From contig JAJDDY010000008.1 in assembly GCA_029260075.1 (NCBI GenBank), positions 1-41,072 of the forward strand: DNA of 41,072 nucleotides, read 5' to 3'. Within the stretch, counting starts at the first letter, position 1. Every line of letters starts with the position of its first letter. Position numbers and translations under genes: made by a program. Below, piece by piece: positions 2,362 to 8,020 of the stretch. The DNA comes from Phycisphaerae bacterium (GTDB lineage: Bacteria; Planctomycetota; Phycisphaerae; UBA1845). Under the pieces are notes generated by a model that saw only the letters and a program-made list of their open reading frames with translations, was not told the DNA's origin and ran no database searches.

Positions 2362-3707
2362 GTTCTCCTCCAAATTAGTTGTTGGAAGTACGCCCCGGTA
2401 GGGCCTGTTTGACTTTGAGGGCGAAGTAGTCGAGATCGTGAAAGCCGTAGGCGATGCGTTTGATGACTTTGATCTTGTTGTTGACCCCTTCCAGTTTGCT
2501 GGTGTGTATCTGATGCTTGCAGTGGCTGATGATTCCGTACTCGTGGCGTTCGAGCATCTCGGCGAACTTCACCAGGGCGGGATGGCCGTCCTGCCTGGCC
2601 ACCTCGCACCACTCGGCCAGCATCTTCATCGCCCAGCCGGGATAGTAGTAATCCCAGATGTGGGCCAGCAGGTCCTTGAGCCAATAGATGGTGGTGAGTC
2701 GCTCGTTGAGATTGAGGATTTCCTCCAGTTGCACCCGACCCTCACGTTTGAGGTTGCCCCAGTTCTTCAGGAACAGGTACTTGCTACCCTTGAGCAATTC
2801 CCGAAGGTCGCCGCCGGCTTTGCGGAACTCTTCGTTGCGGATGTTGTCGATCACTTTGTTGAACGCTTTGACCACATGGAACAGGTCGAAGACGACGTCG
2901 GCCTGTGGGCACCACCGTTTGACGGCGTTGATGTAGGGCTCCCACATGTCGATCGCCACGGCCGCAATGCCCTCCCGAACCTCGGTAGGCATAGCCTCAA
3001 AGAACGCATCGATGGTGGCGTTCTGGCGCCCTTTGCCCATCCAAACAACACGCCCCGTGTCGTAGTCGAGCACGACCGTCATGTAGTGGTGACCTTTCTT
3101 GACTGCGATTTCGTCGATGGCCAGACGTTTGAGGTTGTCATAGGTCGTCTGGCCGAACTCGGCTTGGAGCGCAGCCTTGTCGATGGTCTTGACCGTTTTG
3201 GGATCGAGGTCGAGGTGCCGGGCCACCACCTCCACACTCAGGCCGGCCTTGCAGAGTTGAGCGGCATAGGCGGCCAGACGGTGCGTGACGCGGGCACTGG
3301 CATCGACGAACGCCAATCCCTCGACCCGGACCTTGCGGCAATGGTGGCATCGAATCTTGCGGTGCTCGACTTGCAGGAGCATGGTGAAGCCACCGAAGCT
3401 CAGATCCCGAATGAACTTTCGCGTGTGGGCATGGATCGCACCGGGCTTCCCGCAGACATGACAGATGGGTCGGTATCGCCGGTCGGGTTCAACGCGGACG
3501 ATCGCCGAACGCGAGCCTTCGACCGTATTGGTGTACGTGATTCTCACTCGACGCCAAGGGAAAAAAGATGCTAGACTGCATGTGGACACCGCGTTCCTCC
3601 TTTCAAGGCCAAACAACGTTCGTGATCAAACGTCTGTTTAGCCCCCGGAGAACCGGTGTCCAACTCGTTTCAAGCCTTAAATCTCAACAACTTTTTTGGA
3701 GGAGAAC
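2362..3707. mobile_element. ISL3-type insertion sequence
   Basis: The element is 1346 bp. The terminal inverted repeats are 23 bases: 2362-2384 begins GTTCTCCTCCAAA and ends AGTTGTTG, and 3685-3707 is its complement with two mismatches. The left repeat overlaps the end of the transposase gene. The 8-bp target duplication usual for ISL3 is not visible, and the right end joins a 5'-truncated AlkD-like gene, so a deletion probably followed insertion. The termini were called by eye. Confidence 0.75.
2375..3589 (-). CDS. ISL3 family transposase
   Basis: 404 residues from a GTG start preceded by AAAGGAGG at 6 bases, which decides this start over an in-frame ATG at 3616. An N-terminal zinc-finger pair (CHVCGKPG, then CHHCRKV about 40 residues later) and a helix-turn-helix region precede the DDE domain. 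Its acidic residues appear in AIDEIAVKKGH, AIDMWEPYI and TSKLEGVNNKIK, the ISL3 (PF01610) pattern. The reading frame is uninterrupted, so the transposase may be active. It catalyses cut-and-paste movement of its own element. Confidence 0.9.
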   Translation of the reverse strand: MSTCSLASFFPWRRVRITYTNTVEGSRSAIVRVEPDRRYRPICHVCGKPGAIHAHTRKFIRDLSFGGFTMLLQVEHRKIRCHHCRKVRVEGLAFVDASARVTHRLAAYAAQLCKAGLSVEVVARHLDLDPKTVKTIDKAALQAEFGQTTYDNLKRLAIDEIAVKKGHHYMTVVLDYDTGRVVWMGKGRQNATIDAFFEAMPTEVREGIAAVAIDMWEPYINAVKRWCPQADVVFDLFHVVKAFNKVIDNIRNEEFRKAGGDLRELLKGSKYLFLKNWGNLKREGRVQLEEILNLNERLTTIYWLKDLLAHIWDYYYPGWAMKMLAEWCEVARQDGHPALVKFAEMLERHEYGIISHCKHQIHTSKLEGVNNKIKVIKRIAYGFHDLDYFALKVKQALPGRTSNN

Positions 3708-4288
3708 CGAAAATCAAGGGGAAGCACGAGTTGGCGTGCGAACTCTACGAAACCGGGAACTACGACGCGATGTATCTTGCGGGGCTGGTGGCTGACGGAA
3801 AACAGATGAGCAAGAAAGAGCTGGACGACTGGGCTAAGTCGGCTGCGTGGGTCTGGATCTCGGAGTACGCCGTGCCTTGGGTGGCGTCGGAGAGCCCGCA
3901 CGGGCGCGACATGGCGATGAAGTGGATCAAATTAAGGAAAAAGGAGTCCATTGCGTCGTGTGGATGGTGTACATATTCCAGCCTGGTGGCTATCACGCCA
4001 GATGAGGAGCTGAATCTGGCTGAAATCAAGGAGTTGCTACGGCACGTCGAGAAGGAGATCAATGCTTCAGCCAATCGTGTAAGATACACGATGAATGGTT
4101 TCGTTATCGCCGTGGCGGCGTATGTGACGCCGGTCTTGAGACAGGCTAAGGAGACCGCGAAGAAACTCGGCAAGGTCGACGTGGATATGGGGGATACCGC
4201 GTGCAAAGTGCCGCTGGCGTCGGAATACATCGAGAAGTTGGAGAAGGCGGGTCGGGTTGGGAAGAAACGCAAAACGACGCGGTGTTAG
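3656..4288 (+). pseudogene. AlkD-like DNA alkylation repair gene, 5' end removed by the insertion sequence
   Basis: From about residue 18 (base 3708) the translation matches the AlkD-like HEAT-repeat family (PF08713): HELACELYETGNYDA, ASCGWCTYSSLV, RVRYTMNGFVIAVAAYV and GDTACKVPLASEYI. Compared with the intact paralogue just downstream, about 50-55 N-terminal residues are missing. The first residues of the open frame, including NNFFGGEP, are encoded by the right inverted repeat of the IS, so the apparent GTG start at 3656 is IS DNA. The missing 5' part is not seen on the far side of the IS. The family removes alkylated purines from DNA; this copy is probably non-functional, though a chimeric product could be made. 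Confidence 0.8.
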
Positions 4289-4335
4289 GGACACTCTCGA
4301 TCGCAAACGGGCTCACCCACGATGGGATTACGACC

Positions 4336-5001
4336 ATGACCATCAAAGAAACACTCAAGCAGCTCAGAGCGCTCGGGAACGAGAAGATGCGGAAGCAAAA
4401 CACCAAGCACGGTGCCGGTGACAATCAGTTCGGCGTCCGACGCGGCGAGGTCCGTAAGCTGGCGAAGAAGATTACGACAAACCACGAGTTGGCTGTGGGA
4501 CTCTGGAAGACCGGGAACATCGACGCCCAGTTCTTGGCAATCCTCCTGATCGAACCAAAGTCCTTGTCAGCGGAAGAAATGGATCGGATGGTGCGGTCGG
4601 TCACGTTTGTAGAAGTAGCGGACTGGCTCAACTCTTACGTCGTCAAGCATCACCCCGACAAGGAGAAGCTTCGCCAGGGGTGGATGGCCACTGACGACCC
4701 CATGGCTGCCCGCGCCGGATGGAGCCAAACCGCCGGGCGAATCGTGAAGAGTCCAGAAGGGCTCGACCTCCCAGCGCTTCTGGATCGAATCGAGTCTGAA
4801 ATGGGCAGCGCCGCTTCAGAAGTGCAGTGGACGATGAACGGCTGTCTTGGGGAAATCGGAATCCACTTCCCCAACCACCGCAAGCGTGCCCTCGCCATCG
4901 GAGAGACGTTGGGAGTCTACCGTGACTATCCCTGTTCCAAGGGTTGCACCTCACCTTTCGCCCCGATCTGGATCAACGAGATGGTGCGGCGGCAAGGCTG
5001 A
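4336..5001 (+). CDS. AlkD-like DNA alkylation repair protein
   Basis: About 221 residues from ATG 4336. That start gives the usual family N-terminus (MTIKETLKQLRALGNEKMRK); earlier in-frame codons read through the end of the upstream pseudogene. The family signature is GDNQFGVRRGEVRKLAKKI near residue 35, followed by HEAT-like helical repeats, a VEVADW segment, QWTMNGCLGEIGI and a C-terminal SKGCTSPFAPIWI. The family (PF08713; characterised members AlkC and AlkD) excises 3- and 7-alkylated purines without base flipping. This protein lies in a different subgroup from its truncated neighbour, so the pair looks like an old duplication or a joint acquisition. Its substrate here is not known. Confidence 0.85.
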   Translation: MTIKETLKQLRALGNEKMRKQNTKHGAGDNQFGVRRGEVRKLAKKITTNHELAVGLWKTGNIDAQFLAILLIEPKSLSAEEMDRMVRSVTFVEVADWLNSYVVKHHPDKEKLRQGWMATDDPMAARAGWSQTAGRIVKSPEGLDLPALLDRIESEMGSAASEVQWTMNGCLGEIGIHFPNHRKRALAIGETLGVYRDYPCSKGCTSPFAPIWINEMVRRQG

Positions 5002-5529
5002 ACTGGCGGCTACATCTCGATACGGTCAGAGCGTCAGGTTTGCATCAGTTATCAACAGCCTGGTCGCATGGCGATCCAGCTTGAGTCCGAAGTCCCCTTG
5101 CTCGCTTCGGCGACCATCCTGACGTCGTCATTTTGAGCGTAGTGGACCGCTTCACAGACTTGATGGTCATCCACCCGGTTAGAACACGATGGAGTGATTT
5201 CAACGCTCACCTTTCGTGGGATCAGTCAGCAGTTACTTTGCGCACTTCTTCCTGCTCCGTCGGTTGATCGAGTTGTGATTCACCGTTTTCGCATAGATGA
5301 GCGAGCATCGACAATGGCGAGCCCAATGAAAGCTACACGTGCCGAAGAAATCTGTTTGCCCCTTCCACCCTGCGTGCTTGAAGCTGAGTACGCAGGCGTC
5401 TTTCTTTTCGACAATCTCAAAAATAATGTGTGTCCCCGTCCAGAGGTGATCGTCGTTGCAACACTCCTATTCCACACGTCGGCGAGGTTCAAGCTCAATA
5501 ACCTTCATCTTGTTTGTCCCGTGATCCGC
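5002..5529. other. Stretch without a recognised gene
   Basis: This is AT-richer than the housekeeping parts of the window. Open frames are present, but their translations match nothing I recognise until the transposase end at about 5530. It is probably decayed mobile DNA. Confidence 0.4.
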
Positions 5530-5703
5530 CGCTCCTCGAAGTTCAAGGCTCGACGCTGCGTGGTCGACCGGACGCGCAGTTGGATCAATCGATACCGCCG
5601 CGTTCTGATTCGATGGGAAAAGAAACCAGAAAACTATATCGGCATGCTACATCTGACCCTCGGCTGCATCGCCTATCAGGCCTCGGGACTGTTTCTGGGA
5701 TAG
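5530..5703 (+). pseudogene. C-terminal remnant of an IS5-type transposase
   Basis: The translation includes RRCVVDRTRSWINRYRRVLI and WEKKPENYIGMLHL, the conserved C-terminal end of IS5-group (IS427/IS1031-like) DDE transposases, whose usual form is RWVVERTFSWLNRFRRL. The catalytic Glu of the DDE triad lies at the usual ERT position, which here reads DRT. Nothing of the N-terminal two thirds is visible upstream. Confidence 0.7.
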
Positions 5704-5715
5704 GTTCTAAGTCTT

Positions 5716-5966
5716 CCGCGCATCTTCACGCGGACGAAACCGGATGGCGGGTCAATGGTCAGACGCATTGTTTATAGTGTTTTGCGAACGATCGGAACTG
5801 CTATTACATGATCGCCGGGGCACGCGGCAGTCCGGCGCTTCAGCAGTCTTTCCCGAGGAATTCGAGGGAGTGTTGATCACCGATTTCTGGGGTCCGTATG
5901 AATCGATGTGCGCCGAGGATCGGCAATACTGCCTGCCTGATTCATGGAACATGGCTGAAGAGTTAT
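5716..5966 (+). pseudogene. Internal remnant of an IS66-type transposase
   Basis: HADETGWRVNGQTH, YYMIAGARGSPAL and EEFEGVLITDFWGPY are central motifs of IS66 family transposases (PF03050). The frame is broken twice: a TAG at 5775-5777 where Trp is usual, and a shift between QQSF and PEEF near 5855. Both ends of the gene are missing. Confidence 0.75.
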
Positions 5967-6567
5967 GAGATCTCGAGTGAGGTTGGATTGGGCCTCACGC
6001 ATAGCAAATGTGTCGCAACTGCGACACGATCGCCGTCACTGGCGTTGCCCTATTGCCGAGCACGGTACGTTATAGACTCGCGGCGCAGGTCCATATGACC
6101 TCGCCACAAATACTACTTCATGGCTGTGCTGACGCACACTACACATCGCAGCGCTTCTGCCGGACTCACCAGGCAGCCGACCAGCCTCCGCTGTTAGAGA
6201 GTTACGAGTCACAGAGACGGTGGATCGCATGATCTCTCACGCCTTGCCCATTGTAGAAATCACGTTTCTGTCACCCAGGGAAAACACCTATACTGAATAT
6301 CCTGTACTTGGCCGATAGATGGCTTGTTCAAGTGGCACGACCCGCACCGCATTGCAACTGGTTCGGACCAGAGACTTGAGGGTACGGATTGATGACGCGT
6401 GCCGTGCTTCGTAGACGGGGCTGCGGTGCGCATGTCCTCTTGCGCGATGCAGACCGCTAGAAGCGGGGTTGAAGCAAACGGCTAGGCAATACAGACTCGC
6501 CCTGCAAGAGGGCGAAGCGCATGATGTCCGTTCCGGTATTCGACTGGTACCCTGAGGAGTGTCCAAC
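5967..6567. other. Stretch without a recognised gene
   Basis: Nothing coding is recognised. TATACT at 6290-6295 could be a -10 element for the response regulator, but no convincing -35 hexamer is seen and the leader would be about 270 bases. Confidence 0.35.
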
Positions 6568-7200
6568 ATGAATCCGAGCGTCGTAGTGTTCGTAATCGAC
6601 CACAACGTGGATAGGGTACGACATGTACATCAGTTGGTAACATCTGCGGGTCTTCCCGCCGAGTGTTATTCCTCAGCCAATTCGTTTGTGGATGATTATG
6701 CAGTTGGTCTACCGGGGTGCGTGGTCGCGAACGTTCGCATGCCGGAGATGAGCGGGGTCACACTGCTCAGGGCGCTGCGTGACGCGGGTGGAACGACACC
6801 GGTCATTCTTAGTAGCGGCTATGGCGACGTCTCGGCCGCCGTAACCGCGATGAAGCTGGGGGCGTTCGACTTTTTCGAACGACCCATCGCCGATCAATCA
6901 CTGATCGAGTGCATCAATCGCGCCATCACCGTCGACAAGGCGCGACTCATTGCCCGAGCCAAGCAGAACGAAATACGCAATCGCTTCGACCGCCTTACGC
7001 CGAGAGAACAACAGGTGATGAGCCACGTGGTCATCGGGCAACCCAACAAGACCATCGCGTACGACCTCGGCTGCAGCAGCAAAACCATTGAGGTTCACCG
7101 CGCTCGGGTTATGAGCAAGATGGAGGCGCCAAGCCTAGCGGGGCTGGTGATCATGTCCATGGCGCTCTCCAACGAACCTCGACTGGCTGTAGCCGTGTGA
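6568..7200 (+). CDS. FixJ/NarL-type response regulator with a degenerate receiver domain
   Basis: 210 residues. GAGGAG at 6554-6559 sits 8 bases before ATG 6568 and decides this start over an upstream GTG. Residues 5-120 are a receiver fold of the FixJ type (PGCVVANVRMPEMSG, SSGYGDVSAAVTAMKLGAFD). Residues 140-200 are a LuxR-type helix-turn-helix (LTPREQQVM, KTIAYDLGCSSKTIEVHR). The phospho-acceptor Asp is Asn55, the acidic pair is D11-H12-N13 instead of DDD or DDE, and the conserved Thr and Lys are Ser83 and Arg105. Phosphorylation by a kinase is therefore unlikely, and no histidine kinase gene is adjacent. It is probably a phosphorylation-independent DNA-binding regulator; targets are unknown. 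It lies among IS remnants. Confidence 0.85.
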   Translation: MNPSVVVFVIDHNVDRVRHVHQLVTSAGLPAECYSSANSFVDDYAVGLPGCVVANVRMPEMSGVTLLRALRDAGGTTPVILSSGYGDVSAAVTAMKLGAFDFFERPIADQSLIECINRAITVDKARLIARAKQNEIRNRFDRLTPREQQVMSHVVIGQPNKTIAYDLGCSSKTIEVHRARVMSKMEAPSLAGLVIMSMALSNEPRLAVAV

Positions 7201-7318
7201 TCATCCATGGAACGCCGTAGAGCCGGCCAAGCATCGCATTCCAACATGTCACGACGCGATGCATAGGCAGTGAGGCGCGGTCGGGTAGACCGCGAAGTAT
7301 GTCGAAGTGCATATAGAC

Positions 7319-7807
7319 TCAGACGCTTCCGGTTTGCTTGCTGTTGTACACCGCCCAAACGATGCGTGGGGCGACGGCGAAGAACGTACCGTCGACCGAC
7401 TGGAGTTCTTGGGCGAGCGCGTCGAGGCGTGTATCGTGCGGCACTAACTCGAGGCGTTTCTTGACCGACTCGATTAATGGCCAGACCAACTCGGGGTCGA
7501 AGAGTCGTTGGGCGTCAGCCAGTCTGCTTTTTTGTATTTTCGGCAGACTGAACCGTTGGAGCATCTTCGGAACCCGGAATACGTCTTCGATGGTCCGCAG
7601 GCTTTTCATAGCCGGGTTGAAAAACGCGAGCAAATGAGCGACGACCATTTGGTCGTAGAAAATGGTTCGGTTGGGATGGTCGCAATGCTCGCGGACCGAT
7701 CCCAGTTCGTCGTCAGTAACGCGAACGAAGCCTCGGCCGCCAACCTGGTTCTTGAACGCCGGAATCGGCTCAACGCGCGGCGCTCGATTGGCTTCTTCGG
7801 ACCGCAT
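7319..7807 (-). pseudogene. N-terminal half of an IS4-type transposase
   Basis: The translation (VGGRGFVRVTDDEL, FYDQMVVAHLLAFFNPAMKS, RLFDPELVWPLIES, QSVDGTFFAVAPRIVWAVYN) resembles the N-terminal part of IS4-like transposases I associate with planctomycete genomes, including the first catalytic Asp in VDGTFF. The frame then ends after SKQTGSV, and the other two catalytic acids are missing. The 3' part was lost. The start is placed at an ATG giving MRSEEANRAPRVEPIPAFKN; this is approximate. Confidence 0.65.
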
Positions 7808-7913
7808 GTGACGCAGTGGTACACCAAGCAATCGCCAGCGCAATTAAGAATTTGTAAGATCCGAGATTGAAAAAAATCAAAGCCCAAAGTTCCGGACAGG
7901 ATTGGATTCCTAC

Positions 7914-8020
7914 CGGTGATCCATTAGCGATTTCCGCCTTTTTGACGGGGAGAAATCCCGTTGTCACGGGAGGGTTCGCGGCGACGTGATTGAATACCAG
8001 CTTTGTTCAACAGACTGTTA
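7914..8020. repeat. Dispersed repeat, family B (copy 1)
   Basis: It begins GGTGATCCATTAGCGATTTC and ends CAGACTGTTA. The second copy is at 16411-16515, with the same order of blocks: GATTTCCGCC, a GTCACGGG arm, GTGCTTGAATAC or GTGATTGAATAC, and an end in TTCAACAG or TTCGACAG. The last three bases supply the stop codon of rdgB on the minus strand. Confidence 0.7.

Follow-up and report, generated by a model that had tools for sequence, protein, structure and literature searches.

A FixJ-type response regulator with an aspartate-less receiver in a Phycisphaerae genome

The window analysed here, a stretch of 41,072 nucleotides from contig JAJDDY010000008.1 of a Phycisphaerae bacterium, contains a response regulator gene of the FixJ type (positions 6568..7200, plus strand; 210 amino acids) whose product has no aspartate at the phosphorylation site of its receiver. 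The locus raises the question of whether the protein is still a working DNA-binding regulator and, if so, what controls it in place of a kinase. A review of 2025 (PMC12632262), drawn upon here together with PMC4395418, describes the on and off switching of such pseudo-receivers as a mystery.

The gene and the catalytic residues of its receiver

The gene was identified from its open frame, Pfam and NCBIfam matches, likeness to PDB entries and an AlphaFold model. The ATG at 6568 was favoured as the start over a GTG at 6559, because a Shine-Dalgarno-like GAGGAG (6554..6559, plus strand) lies 8 nt upstream of the former. The receiver domain (residues 7-116; 6586..6915, plus strand) matched Response_reg, PF00072, at 60.7 bits (cut-off 30.2), and the GerE/LuxR-type helix-turn-helix (residues 142-196; 6991..7155, plus strand) scored 70.3 bits against a cut-off of 23.5. 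By sequence, the nearest solved proteins were FixJ (5xso, 5xt2) and StyR (1yio), and the same entries, with FixJ in full length, were the best PDB folds for the AlphaFold model (mean pLDDT 93.3; alignment of 42 sequences). The protein has its length, domain order and predicted fold in common with FixJ and StyR and, with a FixJ-type receiver followed by GerE/LuxR and FixJ as the nearest solved relative, it shows the architecture of the FixJ family. However, the NCBIfam FixJ model NF006900 gave 203.3 bits, which is under its equivalog cut-off of 255. The G+C content by codon position resembled that of the neighbouring genes.

The receiver was compared with 99 other FixJ-like sequences from the same family and order, giving an alignment of 100 rows with the window sequence included. 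The first acidic residue, D11 (codon 6598-6600), is kept. The second one (DD2) is replaced by His12 (6601..6603, plus strand); Asp stands there in 86 of the 89 Asp55 rows that have a residue at this position, and the 98 rows with a residue comprise 88 with Asp and 3 with Glu. The phospho-acceptor itself is replaced by Asn55 (codon AAC, 6730..6732, plus strand), at a position where the 99 other rows have Asp (90), Gly (6) or Glu (3) and never Asn. Similarly, Arg105 (codon CGA, 6880..6882, plus strand) takes the place of the catalytic Lys, which is found in 89 of the 90 Asp55 rows and in 93 of all 99, with Arg in a single one. At each of these three positions, the catalytic residue is present in at least 88 of the 99 relatives. 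Ser83 (codon AGC, 6814..6816, plus strand), by contrast, is an ordinary variant of the Thr/Ser position rather than a loss: the 90 Asp55 rows have Thr in 57 cases, Ser in 32 and Ala in 1, and the equivalent position is named Ser/Thr in PMC12632262. Asn13 is also present and lies outside the five catalytic residues. The sequence-only reading had listed D11, H12, N13, N55, S83 and R105, all of which are present exactly as read, and had counted four of the five key positions as changed. Since Ser83 is ordinary, this count comes down to three of five: H12, N55 and R105. Among hits from named genomes, which were 29-34% identical and look like more distant or other receiver types, His12 occurred in 3 of 72 and Arg105 in 3 of 80, with Asp55 in all 80; position 12 of these hits possibly stands in a different alignment register. 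As His12 or Arg105 can thus occur singly in receivers that keep the Asp, it is their combination with N55 that carries weight.

According to PMC12632262, a pseudo-receiver is a recognised receiver domain in which one or more of DD, D, T and K are missing, a description that fits the window protein with its three lost residues; N55, which leaves no Asp at the phosphorylation site, also makes it an aspartate-less receiver in the sense of PMC4395418. Aspartate-less receivers make up about 4% of all receivers and pseudo-receivers about 6%, for which an earlier estimate was 13% (PMC12632262); the groups rich in aspartate-less receivers include a planctomycete class (PMC4395418). Asn is the second commonest replacement of the Asp, accounting for 16% of aspartate-less receivers, in which the first acidic residue is mostly kept and the second is acidic in only 29% (PMC4395418); a change of Lys to Arg is common in pseudo-receivers (PMC12632262). 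Taken alone, the window gene is an ordinary member of this well-described class. In contrast to FixJ and StyR, its product has no phospho-acceptor, no DD2 and no catalytic Lys, and no neighbouring kinase was found, as described below. The coupling residues F102, as read from the protein, and S83 are kept. Judged from its sequence, the protein is a FixJ paralogue by descent and not a functional FixJ.

Divergence, kinase neighbourhood and surroundings

To read the divergence of the receiver correctly, it should be considered that the 87 canonical rows of the alignment were picked for intact catalytic residues, and the catalytic columns are therefore invariant in them by construction. We recounted the conserved columns with the six key columns left out. 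With columns picked from the 90 Asp rows, the window receiver departs at 7 of 29, and 5 of the 90 Asp rows are as high; with columns picked from all 99, it departs at 3 of 22, and 19 of 89 Asp rows are as high. Outside the catalytic columns, the receiver is thus at the high end of, or within, the normal range of the Asp rows, and because the recount gives near-normal divergence, it is mainly the catalytic site that has changed. The idea that the window receiver as a whole lies beyond any canonical one was dropped for the same reason. Residues absent from all 87 canonical rows number 12 in the window protein, compared with a mean of 5.7 and a maximum of 18 in canonical rows and with 16-41 in the other damaged proteins. 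The DNA-binding domain, described as intact in the sequence-only reading, indeed keeps 16 of 16 conserved columns (and all 17 under the other choice of columns), although a domain without mismatches is also common among the Asp rows (38 of 90 with 16 columns, 35 of 90 with 17).

Three further positions of the receiver stand out. The residue at K+2 is Ile107, where the 90 Asp rows have Phe or Tyr in 70 cases and Ile in 1; the residue at T-1 is Ser82, with Ser in none of the 99 other rows; and position 16, taken to be DD+4 when counted from the second acidic residue, is an Arg, a residue missing from those listed for the 99 other rows. Along the allosteric alpha1-alpha5 pathway, receivers and pseudo-receivers are least alike at DD+4, T-1 and K+2, and Ala, Ile, Leu or Val at K+2 move CheY towards active forms (PMC12632262). 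Given these published data on CheY and on pseudo-receivers, Ile107, Ser82 and possibly Arg16 would fit a receiver shifted to an active or differently coupled state.

The kinase neighbourhood was examined with a profile for which the kinase adjoining a paralogue in the same genome (L002) and the hits of that kinase were used, a design that unusual kinases would escape. With this profile no histidine kinase was found in the 41-kb window, and no kinase was present among the 30 window proteins scanned with Pfam (the window has 108 ORFs of at least 100 amino acids). The FixL-like neighbour that would make up a FixLJ pair is thus missing from the searched window. A decayed kinase gene just upstream was also considered and discarded, as kinase proteins compared with positions 4901-8000 matched either the regulator itself (E values down to 3e-11) or only weakly (E of at least 0.02). 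In contrast, the Asp-bearing FixJ-like relatives of the same family mostly lie beside a FixL-like kinase: counting rows with a kinase found or with both flanks of at least 1.5 kb, which excluded 7 short-flank Asp rows without a kinase, 58 of 83 Asp rows had a kinase ORF at a distance of 2 kb or less, compared with 0 of 10 Asp-less rows (Fisher p of 2.3e-5, with rows treated as independent). When corrected for the tree, this comparison retains 3-4 independent pairs on supported branches, in which the kinase state differs in 0.7 on average and never in the opposite direction, and it has no power. The Asp-less gene of one locus (L228) has a kinase some 3 kb upstream. A missing kinase is in itself nothing unusual, because 22 of 80 canonical rows also have none nearby and most orphan regulators are typical ones (PMC12632262). 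It is the loss of the acceptor Asp, the second acidic residue and the catalytic Lys, together with the failure to find a kinase or a kinase remnant, that makes independence of the window regulator from a kinase a well-supported prediction. The earlier suggestion of a regulator locked in one state, or controlled by a ligand or partner instead of a kinase, is supported as far as the kinase is concerned; either a locked state or control by a ligand or partner would fit the sequence.

The surroundings of the gene add several observations. The region of the regulator is flanked by an ISL3-family transposase (PF01610; 2375-3616) and by a short IS4-like fragment (7319-7843) whose transposase match is weak (25 bits, cut-off 115). 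A search of positions 6200-7400 found no sigma-70-like promoter (0.7 expected by chance). Since insertion sequence remains lie on both sides and no such promoter was found, recent decay or lack of expression is possible. Positions 3656-5001 hold two adjacent genes that look like diverged copies of each other (27% identity over 177 amino acids, E value of 2e-19); the second matches the DNA-alkylation-repair family PF08713, and the first has no Pfam match. The adjoining 5002-6567, a stretch of about 1.5 kb upstream of the regulator, contains no recognised gene, and one ORF in it has no Pfam match; 87 bases of this stretch have a second copy of 86% identity in another part of the genome (C33:106030-106116). 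The genome also gave one match to PF07596, a family that had none in 14 control genomes, which is a hint of a planctomycete.

Relatives of the regulator in the family, order and phylum

No orthologue of the regulator was found in 51 genomes of the family, 114 of the order and 392 of the phylum, which were drawn evenly from a larger group, when the best first-look candidates of each genome were scored (7 in the phylum search, 27 in the order search); the best relative listed was 48% identical. The 51 family genomes examined included no second genome of the same genus. The relatives mostly carry Asp at position 55, as do all six further ones from the order and phylum searches and a fragment from a viral contig, which was the one partial match among viral contigs. 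Plasmid records gave 1283 with a match, all below 60% identity (best listed, 47%). The sequence-only reading had proposed that Asp-bearing orthologues together with a broken frame or relaxed selection in this copy would point to gene decay; this is not what was seen, since the frame is open and the conserved columns of the DNA-binding domain are all kept.

The Asp is absent from 10 of the 100 FixJ-like rows: besides Asn in the window, Glu is found in L149, L161 and L183 and Gly in L148, L170, L176, L185, L197 and L222. Three more (L162, L172 and L187) keep the Asp and have lost other catalytic residues. The 100 rows came from 104 ORFs, from which the short L178, L196 and L202, the additional short frame found for L185, and L001, which equals the window gene, were left out and to which the window row was added. 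The tree was computed with the key columns removed; on it, the Asp-less rows require five changes, four of which are forced by starred branches, and a single origin of the ten proteins was rejected (AU p of 8.5e-5 for one clade). Of the inner branches, 38 of 97 are starred; the bootstrap is unsettled, branches are long, and the place of the window row, with an end branch of 1.2 compared with a median of 0.47, is not fixed by the tree. Because the tree is weak at depth and has long branches, the number of losses is only rough. One of the Glu-bearing genes, L183, and another gene for a receiver-LuxR regulator are arranged tail to tail (locus L224; 5824-6600, plus strand, and 6678-7496, minus strand), and the two regulators possibly form a partner pair.

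In genus g10, three species (G009, G067 and G068) have an Asp-less FixJ-like regulator in common. Its DNA-binding domain is 87-98% identical and its receiver 45-54% identical between species, with NG86 dN/dS values of 0.005-0.033 and 0.13-0.27, respectively, at a high, near-saturated dS. In G009, the adjoining gene on the same strand encodes a product that matches phosphofructokinase (PF00365, 156 bits); Pfam was run on this copy only (L225), and the neighbours in G067 and G068 are 86-91% identical to it. In G012, which belongs to another genus, a gene 73% identical to the G009 neighbour adjoins the degenerate regulator L172, in which the Asp is still aligned at the site and DD and T are lost. 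The same-strand arrangement of a FixJ-like pseudo-receiver and a phosphofructokinase-like gene thus occurs at L225, L231 and L232 in g10 and at L233 in G012, four species from two genera. L172 ends the longest branch of the tree and does not join the three g10 regulators, and because the tree keeps them apart, its orthology with them rests on the shared neighbour. These data suggest that a FixJ-like regulator without a kinase is tied to sugar metabolism in g10 and G012, and that kinase-free FixJ-like regulators of the family can be maintained, a statement that concerns genes of the g10 type and not the window gene. In the comparison of gene neighbours, none common to the window gene and other Asp-less genes was found. 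The search of open-licence papers returned none joining pseudo-receiver, LuxR and phosphofructokinase and, by title or abstract among the matches listed, none on FixJ-type planctomycete pseudo-receivers or a phosphofructokinase-linked one.

Control of the regulator

The gene probably encodes a functional, phosphorylation-independent DNA-binding regulator that is controlled by its amount or by a partner. It would represent a FixJ-family transcription factor that left two-component signalling: other residues stand where Mg would be bound directly (DD2), the phosphoryl group accepted (D) and that group coordinated (K), and the predicted fold and the DNA-binding domain are kept. The receiver would not be phosphorylatable, and the protein may bind DNA sites of the FixJ type in its unphosphorylated form. 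It would probably do so as a dimer, either with itself or with a FixJ-like protein that is kinase-competent, for which the one encoded on contig C6 of the same genome is an example, so that its output would be set by the amount made or by the partner and not by a histidine kinase. WhiI and BldM are LuxR-type regulators of Streptomyces. Both are orphans, and BldM works without phosphorylation while WhiI acts as a heterodimer with BldM (PMC12632262; the pair also figures in PMC4125116); compared with this pair, the FixJ-like protein on C6 is a candidate partner only. Only two of the 20 atypical regulators covered by the review are not orphans, several of the 20 form dimers in the absence of phosphate, and the models drawn from such pseudo-receivers comprise intrinsic dimers, heterodimers of the WhiI/BldM kind, thiol switches and ligands (PMC12632262).

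It appears unlikely that the gene is instead a decaying paralogue that lost its kinase partner and came under relaxed selection with the frame not yet broken. The long end branch, the insertion sequence remains on both sides, the failure to find an orthologue in the genomes searched, and the 7 departures at 29 non-catalytic columns, reached or exceeded by only 5 Asp rows, would all be expected of such a gene; however, its frame and DNA-binding domain are intact, its codon-position G+C is like that of its neighbours, the 3 departures at 22 columns are matched or exceeded by 19 Asp rows, and its 12 never-seen residues stay within the canonical range. A pseudo-receiver switched by a small molecule or through the redox state of Cys33, which sits at beta2, seems improbable. 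Precedents exist in JadR1 and RedZ, which are switched by pathway end products, and in HP1021, which is switched by thiol oxidation (PMC12632262), and most canonical relatives have Thr at position 33 (46 of 87), yet 5 of the 87 also have Cys there and no biosynthetic cluster was recognised among the window ORFs scanned with Pfam. RitR, the Asn case studied in PMC4395418 and PMC12632262, uses a linker Cys for redox dimerisation (PMC12632262) and has an OmpR-type effector; in contrast, the window protein has a LuxR/GerE effector of the FixJ type, and its only cysteines, at 33, 51, 115 and 169, leave the linker (residues 116-141) without one. Finally, there is very little likelihood that a weak phospho-acceptor remains, either by deamidation of Asn55 to Asp or by another residue taking the phosphate, because DD2 and K are lost as well as the Asp and because Asn-Val sequences deamidate slowly, even though PMC4395418 cites a report of an Asn to Asp reversion in a receiver and phosphorylation can survive a change confined to DD, T or K (PMC12632262).

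Beyond the probable phosphorylation-independent regulator of the window, it is quite possible, though we would stop short of calling it probable, that FixJ-like regulators of this family and order have been uncoupled repeatedly, some 4-5 times, with the DNA-binding domain kept each time, and that at least one of them is now conserved and linked to phosphofructokinase. The window gene would be the mildly changed case, and the group would for this reason present a graded series, with intact receivers at one end, fully degenerate ones at the other and partly lost ones in between. With ten FixJ-like cases from about 4-5 separate losses, receivers changed to differing extents, and kinase-coupled relatives that have a similar DNA-binding domain, the family and its order offer a natural series that could test whether the loss of the receiver frees DNA binding or replaces its control.
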